NCBI GenBank assembly: GCA_031275085.1
Contig: JAISPG010000028.1
Coordinates: forward strand, 62,001 to 126,000
Reading direction: 5' to 3'
Length of the DNA stretch: 64,000 nucleotides
From: Bacteroidales bacterium
Lineage (GTDB): Bacteria; Bacteroidota; Bacteroidia; Bacteroidales; ML635J-15
The notes beneath the pieces were generated by a model, which worked only from the letters and a program-made list of their open reading frames with translations, searched no databases and was not told where the DNA came from. Every line of letters starts with the position of its first letter. Positions within the stretch are counted from its first letter, which is position 1. Below are positions 44,981 to 51,174 of the stretch, piece after piece. Made by a program: the position numbers and the translations under genes.

Positions 44981-45835
44981 CTAATAATTGTTTAACCCAA
45001 GGTGTTTCCAGATCAAATTTTCTGTATCTTCCCAAAGTTGTGCCTGTATCGGCTGGTTTTGATATTCCGGTTTGATATTTTTTAGTTTTCCTCCGGCAGA
45101 TACTTGTCCCGTCACTCCTGCAAATTCATCTGCCAACAAAAGTTTAATGACAGCTGAAGCTCCTTGTTCGGGAGTTTTTATAAAGGGACGAAAAAATATA
45201 TCAGCCAAAGGATCGAACCATTTTTTCATCCTGATTATATTAGTGGATACAATACCCGGATCAGCCGCATTTACTGATATACCTTTCTGTTGCAAACGTT
45301 TTGACAATTCAAAAGTAAAAAATAAAAGTGCAAGTTTAGTATTACTGTAAATACTTAGTCTTCGAAAGTCACCCCTCCTTCCGTAATAAAAAAAGTCAGG
45401 AAGTTCTATTTTTCCATGTTTATAAGTACAGGATATCATATTAACAATACGTGCTCCTTCAGGCATTAATGGAATAAGTTTTCTTGTCAGCAAATAAGGT
45501 GCTACATAATTAATACATACAGTTCGTTCAAAGCCATCGGAAGTTAATTCAAAACAAGTCGGGATCATTCCGGCATTATTCATGAGTAAATCAACAGAAT
45601 CAAACTTCCGTGATATTTCAGAAACAAAAGAAATTACCGAATTTAAATCAGATAAGTCAAGATATATAACCTCTATGCTACCATTTTTATTACATGTTAA
45701 TATCTCAGCTATTTTTACTTCTGCTGCCTTAATATTCCGGCAAGCCATAACAACATGATAACCTGCCTCAGTCATTGCTTTTGTAATTTCAAAACCTATC
45801 CCTCCGGCAGCGCCTGTAATAATAGCTGTTTTCAT
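44981..45835 (-). CDS. Short-chain dehydrogenase/reductase (retinol-dehydrogenase-like)
   Basis: 284 aa classical SDR. NAD(P)-binding TGAAGGIGFEI (8-18) with ACRN after the second strand, which suggests NADP; NNAGM (about 90-94); catalytic Ser in MISCTYKHG (about 138), Tyr and Lys in YSNTKLALL (about 162-166); AADPGIVSTNI. The sequence order recalls retinol/steroid dehydrogenases (RDH11-13, WWOX group). It lies 18 bp downstream of the steroid 5-alpha-reductase homologue in the same direction, so the two probably act on the same lipid-like substrate (ketone/alcohol and enone steps). Confidence 0.88.
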   Translation of the reverse strand: MKTAIITGAAGGIGFEITKAMTEAGYHVVMACRNIKAAEVKIAEILTCNKNGSIEVIYLDLSDLNSVISFVSEISRKFDSVDLLMNNAGMIPTCFELTSDGFERTVCINYVAPYLLTRKLIPLMPEGARIVNMISCTYKHGKIELPDFFYYGRRGDFRRLSIYSNTKLALLFFTFELSKRLQQKGISVNAADPGIVSTNIIRMKKWFDPLADIFFRPFIKTPEQGASAVIKLLLADEFAGVTGQVSAGGKLKNIKPEYQNQPIQAQLWEDTENLIWKHLGLNNY

Positions 45836-45853
45836 TATTTATTTAAACTCAAT

Positions 45854-46615
45854 TTAATATATAAAAGGAATTACCCTTTTTCGATTCATAACTTTATCAC
45901 CAAATTCTTTTTTGTAATTTATATATATGGAATTTGCCCGAGGTATGAGATTTGCACATGTCCAGATTGCAAAAACAGCTCCTGCCAATGACCATGTGAG
46001 TATTGCAAAACCAATCCATTCAACAATTTCCCCAAAATAATTAGCAGAAGTAATATATTTATATAATCCTTTTTCCGGAAGATAATGATTAGTATCTCCT
46101 GGTTTTCGTAAATTCCTTATCACATGGTCGGAATGCAGGTTTATAGCCATACCTGTAAAAAATAAAAAAATCCCAATATTAAACTGAGGAGTTAACAACC
46201 AATCGGTAGTATACATATCTACCGGCGACAAATATAAAATCCATCCTCCCTGGATAAATGCATTTATTAAATTAAACAGTATACCCATTCCAACAATTAC
46301 AAGTGGCATTTTACTGTTACTTTTAAAAAGAAACGGAAAAATAAATGCCCGTTGAAAATAATGCAACAACATCAAACATATCATTATATCAGGTACAAGC
46401 ATTTGTTTACGATCAGATAATAACCACAGGCACATTAATACAAGAAAGACCGGTGCTTCCATAATAATCCATCCTGCCTTATTATTAATACTTCTACCCC
46501 ATTTTCCGTTATTAAACATTCCATAACCCGCATTTATAAAGTAGAGAGCTATAAATACGATAACTGCTACAAATATCATAGCATACAAAAAAGTATAAAA
46601 AAGATGAATGCTCAT
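45854..46615 (-). CDS. Steroid 5-alpha-reductase-family membrane enzyme (SRD5A-like)
   Basis: 253 aa, about seven TM segments. It aligns by eye to animal SRD5A1/2 across its length: GWIIMEAPVFLVL (Glu53, matching the catalytic Glu of SRD5A2), LHYFQRAFIFPFLF (Tyr86, matching the substrate-binding Tyr), then SDHVIRNLRKPGD, YLPEKGLYKYITSANYFGEIVEW (NADPH site, 192-200) and the C-terminal RVIPFIY. The family reduces the double bond of 3-oxo-delta4 steroids or of polyprenols with NADPH. Gut Bacteroidales encode related enzymes that work on bile acids and steroids with SDR partners. Substrate here is inferred, not shown. Confidence 0.9.
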   Translation of the reverse strand: MSIHLFYTFLYAMIFVAVIVFIALYFINAGYGMFNNGKWGRSINNKAGWIIMEAPVFLVLMCLWLLSDRKQMLVPDIMICLMLLHYFQRAFIFPFLFKSNSKMPLVIVGMGILFNLINAFIQGGWILYLSPVDMYTTDWLLTPQFNIGIFLFFTGMAINLHSDHVIRNLRKPGDTNHYLPEKGLYKYITSANYFGEIVEWIGFAILTWSLAGAVFAIWTCANLIPRANSIYINYKKEFGDKVMNRKRVIPFIY

Positions 46616-46741
46616 CGACTAATTTGTTTAATATTATTTTATAACAGGTATTAAAGTAGTCCGTAAATTGTATTCCTTAAATACTGAAGAAGCTATTAAT
46701 TTTATAAGAAAACTATTAAATGTGAATATTCAGGCTACAGA

Positions 46742-47419
46742 TCAAACGCCTTTTCCCATTTCATATGCTTCATTCATTACAGGTAAATCCTTTATACTAC
46801 CTTTTTCCCAAACTCCCGTACCATAAATAATACCTCTTTCAACAGGGTCCGGAATACAATCGAGAAAGCCCCGGAATTCTTCAACTGTTACTTGTAAGGT
46901 TTCTTTATCTTTATCGGCTGCCGTGATTATATAATAGAACTCTTTGCTGCTGATTTCGTTATAACGTTCGTAAGTACGATCAATCATAGTTTTCATTTGC
47001 CCGCACATAGCATAGAAATAAACAGGAGTAGCCATTACGATAACATCTGCTGATACCATTTTACCTACAATCTCATTAGCATCATCATCACCATTTGCTA
47101 AACCGGTCATATCATTATAATCATCATTTGTAAAGAAATTGATTTTCATATCATTCAAATATATCTTTTCCACCTGATGTCCTGCATCTATGGCTCCTTT
47201 GGCAAACTGGTCGCACAAAAGATCCGAATTACCTCCCTTACGAGGACTCGAGGAAAGTATTAACACGTTTTTATTATCTTTCTCTTTTCTTTCTGTTTTA
47301 TGTCTTTTTTCTATTTTTTGTTCACTCTGAACATCGCCGGCATTCTGTTGTTTATTTCCACATGAAATAAAAACAATTGTAAGCAGCATTGCTGTAATAA
47401 ATTTCAAAGAGTATTTCAT
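46742..47419 (-). CDS. Lipoprotein with flavodoxin/NADPH-dependent FMN reductase fold
   Basis: 225 aa. Lipobox TIVFISCGN, then a charged linker (about 25-50), then the fold: VLILSSSPRKGGNSDLLCDQFAKGA (FMN phosphate loop, about 53-77), ATPVYFYAMCGQMKTMIDRTYERY (about 128-151). Relatives usually carry a CxxCxxC-type stretch after the second strand; here it reads MKINFFTNDDYNDM with no Cys. Secreted flavodoxin-fold lipoproteins are uncommon because the flavin must be loaded outside the cytoplasm. In the same direction as DUF362 and SRD5A genes (gaps 146 and 126 bp). Confidence 0.83.
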   Translation of the reverse strand: MKYSLKFITAMLLTIVFISCGNKQQNAGDVQSEQKIEKRHKTERKEKDNKNVLILSSSPRKGGNSDLLCDQFAKGAIDAGHQVEKIYLNDMKINFFTNDDYNDMTGLANGDDDANEIVGKMVSADVIVMATPVYFYAMCGQMKTMIDRTYERYNEISSKEFYYIITAADKDKETLQVTVEEFRGFLDCIPDPVERGIIYGTGVWEKGSIKDLPVMNEAYEMGKGV

Positions 47420-47565
47420 TATTTTTATTATTTAAATGGTTATTATCTGTAAACTTTTATTTTTCATCAATACAAATATCCTGATACTTTTTCATAAACA
47501 AAAATATTAGTGTAAAAAAATAATAACAGATCATAAAAACAGGATTTTGTGTAATATATTCCATT

Positions 47566-48561
47566 TTATTCTATTATGATCAATTTATAATTCTGTGTTC
47601 CTAAACCGATTTTTTCTCCGTAAGTCAGAACATGAATTCCGTTACGGGATTCTATACGCTCAACAAGATGTTTTTTTTCCGGATTCCGATGATTATAAAC
47701 CAAATCAACACATGCTTTATCCAAAGCTACGGGATCGAGCGAAGCAAGTATGCCGACATCTTCAATCCTGGCTGGTTGCGGAGAGGAACTACAATCACAA
47801 TCAACAGACAGATTATTCATTACATTTATATATAGTATATTTTCGCCACAATATTGAGCAACTCCTTTTGCTGCTTCTGCCATAGCTTCAAGGAAATCAT
47901 CCTGTTCGGCACCGTTCCACATACTTGTACTACTTGCCCCAGCTGTATGAATAAGGCATTTTCCGGCTACGGAAGCAATCCCGACAGACATATTTTTGAT
48001 CGCACCGCCAAAACCACCCATCTGATGCCCTTTGAAGTGAGTTAATATTACTGTAAAATCGTAGTTTGCAAAATGAGAACCTATTAAATCAGCTGTAAGA
48101 TGAATTCCGCCGGTAATTGGTAATTCCATTTCGCCGTCTGCATCCAAAATATCAACATCTCCTATTGCTGTAAAACCATGCTGTTCTGCTACCCTCAAAT
48201 GACTTTCAGCAGTACTTCTTTGCCCTCCGTATGCAGTATTTGCATCAATAAAAGTTCCATCAACAGATTTTACAAATTTTCCGACAAGTTCGGGTTTCAA
48301 ATAATTATTGCCACCGGGTTCTCCCATATGAAGTTTTATACCTACTTTTCCTTTAGCTTCACGCCCGAGTGCTTCATATATCTTTATTAAACTTTCGGGT
48401 GAAATTTCATTTATCATATATACAATTGAAGTATCGTCAGAAGATCCCGTACCTTCAGATATTTCTGACCCGGAATTATTTCCTTTATCACAAGAAAATG
48501 ATAAAGCCGTAAAAACTACGGCAAATGATACTATTATAAAAAGGAATGATGATCTTTTCAT
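47566..48561 (-). CDS. DUF362 lipoprotein
   Basis: 331 aa. Lipobox VVFTALSFSCDKGN. DUF362 features: KVGIKLHMGEPGGNNYLKPELV (about 72-93), TAYGGQRSTAESHLRVAEQHGF, HFKGHQMGGFGGAIKNMSVGIAS (about 176-198) and SVDCDCSSSPQPARIEDVGILASLDPVALDKACVDLV (about 251-287). Relatives often have a 4Fe-4S ferredoxin insert (CxxCxxC) in the C-terminal half; I see none here. Six bp from the upstream gene at 48568, so one transcript. Biochemical role of the family is not established. Confidence 0.85.
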   Translation of the reverse strand: MKRSSFLFIIVSFAVVFTALSFSCDKGNNSGSEISEGTGSSDDTSIVYMINEISPESLIKIYEALGREAKGKVGIKLHMGEPGGNNYLKPELVGKFVKSVDGTFIDANTAYGGQRSTAESHLRVAEQHGFTAIGDVDILDADGEMELPITGGIHLTADLIGSHFANYDFTVILTHFKGHQMGGFGGAIKNMSVGIASVAGKCLIHTAGASSTSMWNGAEQDDFLEAMAEAAKGVAQYCGENILYINVMNNLSVDCDCSSSPQPARIEDVGILASLDPVALDKACVDLVYNHRNPEKKHLVERIESRNGIHVLTYGEKIGLGTQNYKLIIIE

Positions 48562-48567
48562 TTTTTA

Positions 48568-49200
48568 TTATTTTATTTTGTTATATGTATGATCTATTAA
48601 CGGCAGTAGTTCTTTTTCAAAAATCTCTTTACTTATTATACGATAGTGCGGAGCATAGGATTCATTAAACTCTTTACTGTGATGCCCGACATAGTTGCCT
48701 TCTTCCAGACGGTTTTTTATTTCGTTATAATCATTGTCATAATTTGGGAGAGAAAGGTTCATTGATCTTATTACAGCTTCAATTTGCGACCATTCTTTTT
48801 GCCACTCTTCAACAGTAATGGGTTTAATTTCATTTACGCTTCTTATAAACGCATCTAAAAAACGATCTAAGGGAATGATCTCATCTTTTAATACAGATAA
48901 ATTCACCCGGTAAAAATTTTGTTCCCATCCGGTTGGTTCCGCCAATTCACCCGATGATACTGAATAAGAATTTAATTCGTTAAGAAGATAACGCCTGGCA
49001 GCAGCAGTATCAGCAATAATATGTCCTGGTCCGAACCTGTCCTGAAAAAAATTCTTATATAAATCTTTCAATGTTGATTTTGGATATATTTTCATCTGAC
49101 GGTTAACAGCATCGCGGACTTTTTCTTCAAAATCTTTGTTATCAGCAGAAAATGAAGATAAAGTAAGAACAGTAGCAAGCAATAAATATAGTATCCGCAT
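48568..49200 (-). CDS. Exported protein of unknown function
   Basis: 210 aa with signal peptide MRILYLLLATVLTLSSFSAD. Mostly helical and charged. Distinct blocks: KSTLKDLYKNFFQDRFGPGHIIADTAAARRYLLNEL (about 42-77), GWEQNFYRVNLSVLKD, and HHSKEFNESYAPHYRIISKEIF (about 173-194). I do not recognise the family, although the FFQDxFGPGH block looks conserved enough to be an active or binding site. First gene of the group running to SRD5A/SDR, with a consensus -7 box 20 bp upstream. Periplasmic or surface. Confidence 0.75.
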   Translation of the reverse strand: MRILYLLLATVLTLSSFSADNKDFEEKVRDAVNRQMKIYPKSTLKDLYKNFFQDRFGPGHIIADTAAARRYLLNELNSYSVSSGELAEPTGWEQNFYRVNLSVLKDEIIPLDRFLDAFIRSVNEIKPITVEEWQKEWSQIEAVIRSMNLSLPNYDNDYNEIKNRLEEGNYVGHHSKEFNESYAPHYRIISKEIFEKELLPLIDHTYNKIK

Positions 49201-49598: not shown

Positions 49599-50546
49599 TT
49601 AAAACTTAATCAAAGTTGCACCTGAAGAATAACCACCGCCAAAAACAGTAATTCCTACAAGGTTTCCTTTTTGGAATTTATCTTCATTTTCCATCATAAC
49701 TAAAAAGGCACTTGCAGAACCTGTATTTCCATATTTATGTATATTGTTCAAAGATTTATCTTCCGGAAAGTCAAGATGATGAAGTACGTTACTTACAATC
49801 CTCATATTAGCCTGGTGTGCAATAATATAATCCAGTTCATTTAACTGTACATTTACTTTTTTAATTGCGCTATTAATTGCATCTACCATAAAACGTGTAG
49901 CATTTATAAATATATCTTTACCGTTTGTCATTTCAATATTTCCTTGTCTGGGAGACAAATAAACTCCTTCAGGTCCTTTTCCTATATGTCCCAATCCACG
50001 TGTAATTACACTCAAGATTTCCGGATCATTTTCGGAAAAAGCTTCTTTGGATATAAAAAATGCGACTGCCGCATCACCCCATAAATGCCCGCTTTTTGGA
50101 TCGCTGTCATCATTATAATATGAATTATTTTCAGAACAAATAATAAGAGCTCTTTCTGCCTTATTTGTTGCAAAATATCCTTCTACAATTTCAATAGCAT
50201 TCACACAGGAAGAACATGCCGACGATATCATCAAAGATGCTGCATTTTCAATATTGAAATCACGTTGAATAATATGTGCTAAAGTTCCTACCGTATCCTG
50301 AGTTGTATAACCTGCACTTATTATGAGGTCAATGCTGTTCACAGGATATGGAAGCCGCCCTATTGCTCTTTCTACAGCTTCTTTTCCCATTGTAAAAGTA
50401 TTTTCACCTTCAGAAACCCTTGATCTGGTTTTAATTCCGGTCCGTTGAAAAATCCAGTCACTGGAAAGTCCGTTTAAACTAAAAAAATAATCATTATGAA
50501 CTCTCTCTGAAGGTACGTAATATCCCATTGCGTTTATATACATCAT
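49599..50546 (-). CDS. 3-oxoacyl-ACP synthase III family (FabH-like ketosynthase)
   Basis: 315 aa thiolase-fold enzyme. Catalytic triad visible: Cys111 (MISSACSSCVNAI), His244 (IIAHQANMRIV) and Asn274 (HKYGNTGSAS). N-terminal WIFQRTGIKTR is typical of FabH. Starts fatty acid chains by condensing an acyl-CoA with malonyl-ACP, or serves a specialised pathway such as OleA/DarB-type condensation; GHLWGDAAVAFFIS matches standard FabH. It follows a TetR gene by 28 bp and so is regulator-linked, unlike housekeeping fabH, which normally lies with plsX/rpmF. A second, specialised copy is therefore likely. Confidence 0.88.
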   Translation of the reverse strand: MMYINAMGYYVPSERVHNDYFFSLNGLSSDWIFQRTGIKTRSRVSEGENTFTMGKEAVERAIGRLPYPVNSIDLIISAGYTTQDTVGTLAHIIQRDFNIENAASLMISSACSSCVNAIEIVEGYFATNKAERALIICSENNSYYNDDSDPKSGHLWGDAAVAFFISKEAFSENDPEILSVITRGLGHIGKGPEGVYLSPRQGNIEMTNGKDIFINATRFMVDAINSAIKKVNVQLNELDYIIAHQANMRIVSNVLHHLDFPEDKSLNNIHKYGNTGSASAFLVMMENEDKFQKGNLVGITVFGGGYSSGATLIKF

Positions 50547-50574
50547 AAAAAATTATTAGATTAAAAAATTCAGC

Positions 50575-51174
50575 TTATTTTATCTGGTCACTATTTAAAA
50601 GTCCATATAAAATAATCATTGTCTTTCTCCTCAAAGATTCGTCCCTATCTTTACCAGGTTCGTCAAATATCCCCCTGATATAGGGAACTTCAATCCCTCT
50701 CATTACAAAATGTCCGAAAATAGCTGCCTGCTTCACATCTTCAAAATGAAACAGATTAGAGTCACAGCCTTCCTGAAAAATAGTTTCTATAAATCCTACT
50801 TCTAATTTCTCCATTTTTCGCCTTACTAATTCTACCCTTACCACATCCATGAAAAAATCAGCATGCAATGAACCGTTGCGAGCAACAACTTCCCGAACTG
50901 TATTCATTCTTGTAATTACATAAGTAATGAACTTCTCCACAGGATCCAGGTCTAAATAAACAACCTTTTCCACTGCTTTAATTACATATTCCATTTCTTC
51001 TGCGATAACTGCATCCAAAATTTCATTTTTATTCTTAAAATATGTATAGAGGGTTCGTCTTCCTTTTCGGGATTCCACGGCAATATCATGCATTGTAGTA
51101 TTCTTCAGTCCTGTTTTACCAAAGAGTTTTCTTGCTGCACTTACTAATTCCTGTCTTGTTTTATTTACATTCAA
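50575..51174 (-). CDS. TetR-family regulator upstream of FabH
   Basis: 199 aa. N-terminal HTH: LVSAARKLFGKTGLKNTTMHDIAVESRKGRRTLYTYFKNKNEIL, full TetR match. The start is TTG (51174): the next upstream in-frame codons reach a stop after four triplets and the first in-frame ATG is Met28, inside the HTH. The ligand domain is unassigned. A 29-bp palindrome lies immediately before the start and overlaps the -7 box, so autorepression, together with control of fabH 28 bp downstream, is very likely. An acyl-CoA ligand is a guess from the partner gene. Confidence 0.92.
   Translation of the reverse strand: MNVNKTRQELVSAARKLFGKTGLKNTTMHDIAVESRKGRRTLYTYFKNKNEILDAVIAEEMEYVIKAVEKVVYLDLDPVEKFITYVITRMNTVREVVARNGSLHADFFMDVVRVELVRRKMEKLEVGFIETIFQEGCDSNLFHFEDVKQAAIFGHFVMRGIEVPYIRGIFDEPGKDRDESLRRKTMIILYGLLNSDQIK

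Follow-up and report, generated by a model that had tools for sequence, protein, structure and literature searches.

The five genes at positions 44981-49200 of the window, the 64,000-nt stretch of a Bacteroidales bacterium assembly that was analysed here, raise the question of whether they encode one pathway. The host assembly has a size of 3.08 Mb and is 89% complete. All five ORFs are co-directional on the minus strand and span 49200 down to 44981, in the order exported 210-aa protein, DUF362 protein, flavodoxin, SRD5A and SDR. From the low to the high coordinate they are:

44981..45835, minus strand: SDR resembling retinol and steroid dehydrogenases, probably the 3-hydroxysteroid dehydrogenase of the 5AR cluster (PF00106, E-value 5.9e-34)
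45854..46615, minus strand: SRD5A family steroid 5-alpha-reductase (5AR) (PF02544, 1e-43)
46742..47419, minus strand: lipoprotein of the FMN_red/flavodoxin type, lacking the cysteine motif that its cytosolic relatives have (PF03358, 6.4e-21)
47566..48561, minus strand: DUF362 lipoprotein (PF04015, 3.7e-44)
48568..49200, minus strand: exported 210-aa protein of an unnamed family, apparent partner of exported DUF362 (no Pfam or PHROG family)

The gene of the 210-aa protein is separated from that of DUF362 by 6 bp, and the following gaps are 146, 126 and 18 bp. Export signals were predicted by reading the sequence only: the flavodoxin has a lipobox-like VFIS-C20, DUF362 has LSFS-C24, and the 210-aa protein has a plain signal peptide. 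An earlier sequence-only reading of this DNA had placed the five ORFs and the gaps of 18, 126 and 146 bp exactly where we found them, and its three exported proteins upstream of SRD5A in the same direction agree with the co-directional ORFs and their signal-like N termini. No decisive promoter was found in the gaps by scans for the Bacteroidota TAnnTTTG and sigma-70 patterns, and the sigma-70 matches were about as common as in shuffles. Since the genes share one direction and the gaps are at most 146 bp, co-transcription of all five is possible. The explanation that we consider probable is that the locus holds two adjacent, separate units: SRD5A and SDR as a reduced steroid cluster, and an upstream envelope set.

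The DUF362 protein gave a full domain match to PF04015 (151.6 bits, cut-off 24), which places it in this family. It is a lipoprotein of 331 aa, while the paralogues of its congeners have 378-395 aa with an insertion and are unlinked to SRD5A, lying about 100 kb or more from it or on other contigs. Within the order, another 20 genera have close relatives, and most of those read have signal-like N termini. Among the titles and abstracts on DUF362, none giving a function was found. The 210-aa protein belongs to no Pfam or PHROG family and has no PDB relative. A model of it built from 4 sequences only (pLDDT 71) gave no PDB match below E 1. Its family has the motif YPxSTLxDxYKxFFQDxFGPGH ... HHS ... 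PHYRI, and in 12 sequences Y39, L44, D46, Y48, K49, Q53, G57, P58 and H60 were invariant among others, as were H173, H174, S175, Y182, P184, H185, Y186 and R187. No relatives of either protein were found in viral-contig scans, and the gene of the 210-aa protein is absent in the congeners.

Among 324 genomes of the order, the 210-aa family was present in 32 and a close DUF362 in 30, with both in 10. The two genes were adjacent and co-directional in six of these (the window, G159, G231, G255, G268 and G332), which represent four families; DUF362 preceded the other gene in four genomes and followed it in two. The five pairs outside the window come from three other families, and SRD5A is not next to them. 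By a naive count, the chance of these five adjacencies is about 4e-14; since three of the five genomes belong to one genus, the real value is higher but still very small, and the adjacency corresponds to about four independent cases. Because the genes are neighbours in five other genomes and in either order, the two proteins appear to be a true envelope pair that is so far undescribed, so the exported trio itself is not a random set. This pair is the mild novelty of the locus and offers a handle on two proteins without an assigned function, of which the 210-aa protein is outside Pfam.

The third exported protein has a predicted lipobox at Cys20. From about residue 49 it is about 56-61% identical to cytosolic FMN_red flavoproteins carrying a CTGCGxC..C motif, from which it differs by having gained a lipoprotein signal and lost the cysteines, with INFFTNDDYN in place of INYCTGCGTC. 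Two other lipoprotein homologues (L207 and L208) also have no CTGCGxC..C motif and group with it at 100/99. This grouping, on long branches, suggests one move to the periplasm with the loss of a motif that is likely metal- or Fe-S-binding, and a single origin is likely.

In the favoured explanation, the upstream unit would thus consist of the 210-aa protein and the DUF362 lipoprotein, followed here by the lipoprotein flavodoxin, and would probably serve in redox or cofactor handling in the periplasm, with no link to the steroid. A refinement of this, rather than a full alternative, is that the three work together as a separate periplasmic module for redox or cofactor tasks, such as the assembly or reduction of a metal- or flavin-containing envelope protein. 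Such a module fits the finding that four families have the pair and that both gene orders occur. Moreover, in G206 and G224 the gene of the 210-aa protein is directly next to FMN_red genes, in G206 an exported DUF362 comes after an exported Flavodoxin_4, and several genomes have exported DUF362 in the vicinity of TonB receptors or 4Fe-4S proteins. However, the flavodoxin family of the window was beside DUF362 in no other sampled genome, the model of the 210-aa protein matched no known structure, and the neighbours vary between genomes. A small envelope module is therefore plausible, our best guess for its role being redox or cofactor work, and we propose the three-protein module only tentatively. 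The same tentative standing applies to the wider idea that the undescribed family with GPGH, HHS and PHYRI, exported DUF362 and at times cysteine-less exported flavodoxins act together in the periplasm, as a module for redox or cofactor handling that is widespread in the Bacteroidales. At three other loci (L199, L202 and L203), exported DUF362 has a small membrane protein nearby that belongs to no Pfam family and appears ECF-S-like by eye, and in L202 and L203 the DUF362 gene stands behind TonB-dependent receptors. These neighbours hint at metal or cofactor uptake.

The SRD5A protein scored 149.3 bits against PF02544 (cut-off 22.6) and belongs to this family. By phmmer, its best solved relatives were PbSRD5A (7c83, 2e-56, residues 12-252 of 253) and human SRD5A2 (7bw1, 1.7e-41), with the TECR-type art-1 scoring far lower (1.5e-9). 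A structure model with 20 Bacteroidales sequences as input (pLDDT 82) has the multi-helix SRD5A membrane fold. Foldseek gave TM values of 0.83 to 7c83 and 0.73 to 7bw1 and no further significant match. The window protein shares its whole fold with PbSRD5A (7C83) and SRD5A2 (7BW1), at about 38 and 32% identity, respectively, in the structural alignment. The label "animal-like" given to this protein earlier is loose: animals share the family, but the protein belongs to the Bacteroidales clade of it.

In SRD5A2, catalysis depends on Q56, E57 and Y91, with Q56 being essential, and the residues that bind NADPH are N160, D164, R171, N193, E197, R227, H231 and Y235 (PMC7815742). The window protein keeps the equivalents of E57 (Glu53), Y91 (Tyr86), N160, D164, R171, N193, E197, R227 and Y235. 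It differs from SRD5A2 and PbSRD5A in having Met52 for Q56 and Ile for H231, and of their Q-E-Y catalytic motif only E and Y are kept. The sequence-only reading had the catalytic residues of SRD5A2 and the NADPH block SANYFGEIVEW conserved, which is correct for Glu53, Tyr86 and the block itself; Q56 and H231, however, are replaced. Met52 was invariant in 82 of 82 aligned Bacteroidales SRD5A sequences, that of Odoribacter laneus included, and the Ile was present in 77 of the 82. O. laneus is reported to have 5AR activity, and Parabacteroides merdae to show a phenotype on 5AR disruption (PMC10382948). Since the Met clade includes O. laneus, reported to be 5AR-active, we infer that the Bacteroidales 5AR clade evidently functions without Gln at this position. 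A residue essential in SRD5A2 thus appears dispensable in this clade and for defining the family. Functional membership of the window protein is based on the fold, the family score and the E/Y pair; the putative activity is an NADPH-dependent reduction of 3-oxo-delta4 steroids.

The SDR carries the motifs NNAG at 86 and YSNTK at 163. Its best NCBIfam match was to the retinol-dehydrogenase-like SDR oxidoreductases of the PRK06197 type (6.4e-45), with which it has the SDR motifs in common; its 153.7 bits are below the curated cut-off of 268, so it is not a member of that family. In the tree it falls within the clade of SDRs adjoining Bacteroidales SRD5A, split from the second cluster SDR type at 100%. 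The SDR family of this gene and its distance of 18 bp from SRD5A, as given earlier, were confirmed.

The locus was compared with 90 SRD5A loci, namely 80 named loci from a scan with one genome per species and 10 congener loci. The named loci carry close SRD5A relatives, and all except one of them were titled Bacteroidales or Bacteroidia. In 72 of the 90 loci the gene after SRD5A encodes an Old Yellow Enzyme (PF00724; putative 5-beta-reductase, 5BR), and an SDR of the window type lies at most 4.5 kb downstream in 45. The direct succession of SRD5A and SDR seen in the window was found at five other loci (L068, L092, L100, L106 and L114), whose hosts are a Parabacteroides sp., two Bacteroides, a Rikenellaceae and an unplaced Bacteroidales. 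Three of these five genomes have an Old Yellow Enzyme elsewhere, and none was found in the other two. One related locus (L061) is that of O. laneus. Both O. laneus and P. merdae are reported to produce isoalloLCA from 3-oxo-delta4-LCA, and the gene set described for this consists of a 5AR, an NADH:flavin oxidoreductase as putative 5BR and a predicted 3-beta-HSDH (PMC10382948). The survey and this report agree with the earlier statement that clusters of 5AR and hydroxysteroid dehydrogenase are known from gut Bacteroidales.

The window SRD5A is 49-64% identical over its length to the homologues in this bile-acid 5AR-5BR-3betaHSDH cluster of P. merdae, O. laneus and Bacteroides, and the SDR of the cluster clade is directly downstream and co-directional across the 18-bp gap. 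In contrast to the cluster, no Old Yellow Enzyme is present in the locus or the assembly. Because the Old Yellow Enzyme is missing, the SRD5A-SDR genes are classed by sequence as a 5AR-SDR pair of the same kind as the known cluster and not as a full cluster. PF00724 was not found in the 89% complete assembly, and five congeners have one such gene each; since the assembly is incomplete, the gene could be in the missing part. The lack of this family was unusual when set against 13 of 14 control genomes. The SRD5A of the congeners is of a different clade (about 54% identical) and is accompanied by the other SDR type, so that the window pair was probably acquired separately and a transfer origin is plausible, with the placement of the SRD5A weakly supported. 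The idea that the five genes form an inserted island was rejected, the flanking genes being likewise rare within the genus.

In the favoured explanation, the membrane SRD5A would accept a 3-oxo-delta4 steroid, bile acid or sterol intermediate as its presumed substrate. The hydride of NADPH would be transferred onto C5, and Glu53 and Tyr86 would hold and protonate the enone, giving a 5-alpha (allo, flat) 3-ketone. The NADP-type SDR would then reduce the 3-keto to a 3-hydroxy group, presumably with 3-beta stereochemistry, or might catalyze the reverse oxidation. Because the assembly is without Old Yellow Enzyme, 5-alpha reduction plus a 3-keto/3-hydroxy step is the expected outcome in this organism. 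Without 5-beta-reductase, such a reduced 5AR-(5BR)-hydroxysteroid dehydrogenase cluster should yield the flat series only, from ready-made delta4-3-ketones, and 5-beta bile acids could not be turned into allo forms. No bile salt hydrolase was found in the assembly, and bile acids are therefore not favoured over sterols or steroids.

The same lack of a bile salt hydrolase is consistent with another substrate for the pair, such as a non-steroid isoprenoid (e.g. polyprenol, as for SRD5A3) or an endogenous lipid, and the sequence alone does not reveal the substrate. However, the best solved relatives are two steroid reductases, PbSRD5A and SRD5A2, with art-1 far behind in a comparison that did not include SRD5A3, and the Bacteroidales homologues belong to clusters with a demonstrated bile-acid role (PMC10382948), which makes a non-steroid substrate unlikely. 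The pair represents a known kind of system with one gene missing, and the window adds one more Bacteroidales lineage that appears to carry genes of 5-alpha steroid/bile-acid reduction.

The sequence-only reading had joined both units in one possible pathway, with the exported trio as partners of SRD5A and SDR, and had named a survey of gene neighbourhoods as the check. In the 90 loci, there was essentially no co-conservation beyond SRD5A-SDR. DUF362 was near SRD5A in none and a close flavodoxin in one (L055), where a 56% homologue that is cytosolic with intact cysteines follows the cluster. The gene of the 210-aa protein was near SRD5A in three, all Parabacteroides, on the opposite strand and about 2 kb past the cluster SDR, beyond three housekeeping-like genes. 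The families of SRD5A and SDR use NADPH and do not require a periplasmic electron carrier. A single five-gene operon whose exported proteins handle substrate or electrons, which the shared strand, the gaps of 6-146 bp and these four loci would suit, is thus very improbable, the more so as the DUF362 pair occurs without SRD5A nearby. Of the earlier proposal, the SRD5A-SDR half stands as a known gut arrangement, while the exported proteins as its partners do not. Farther upstream on the same strand, 398 bp from the gene of the 210-aa protein, positions 49599-51174 encode a TetR-family regulator and, directly behind it, a KASIII-like ketosynthase, which was found in only 2 of 25 congeners.
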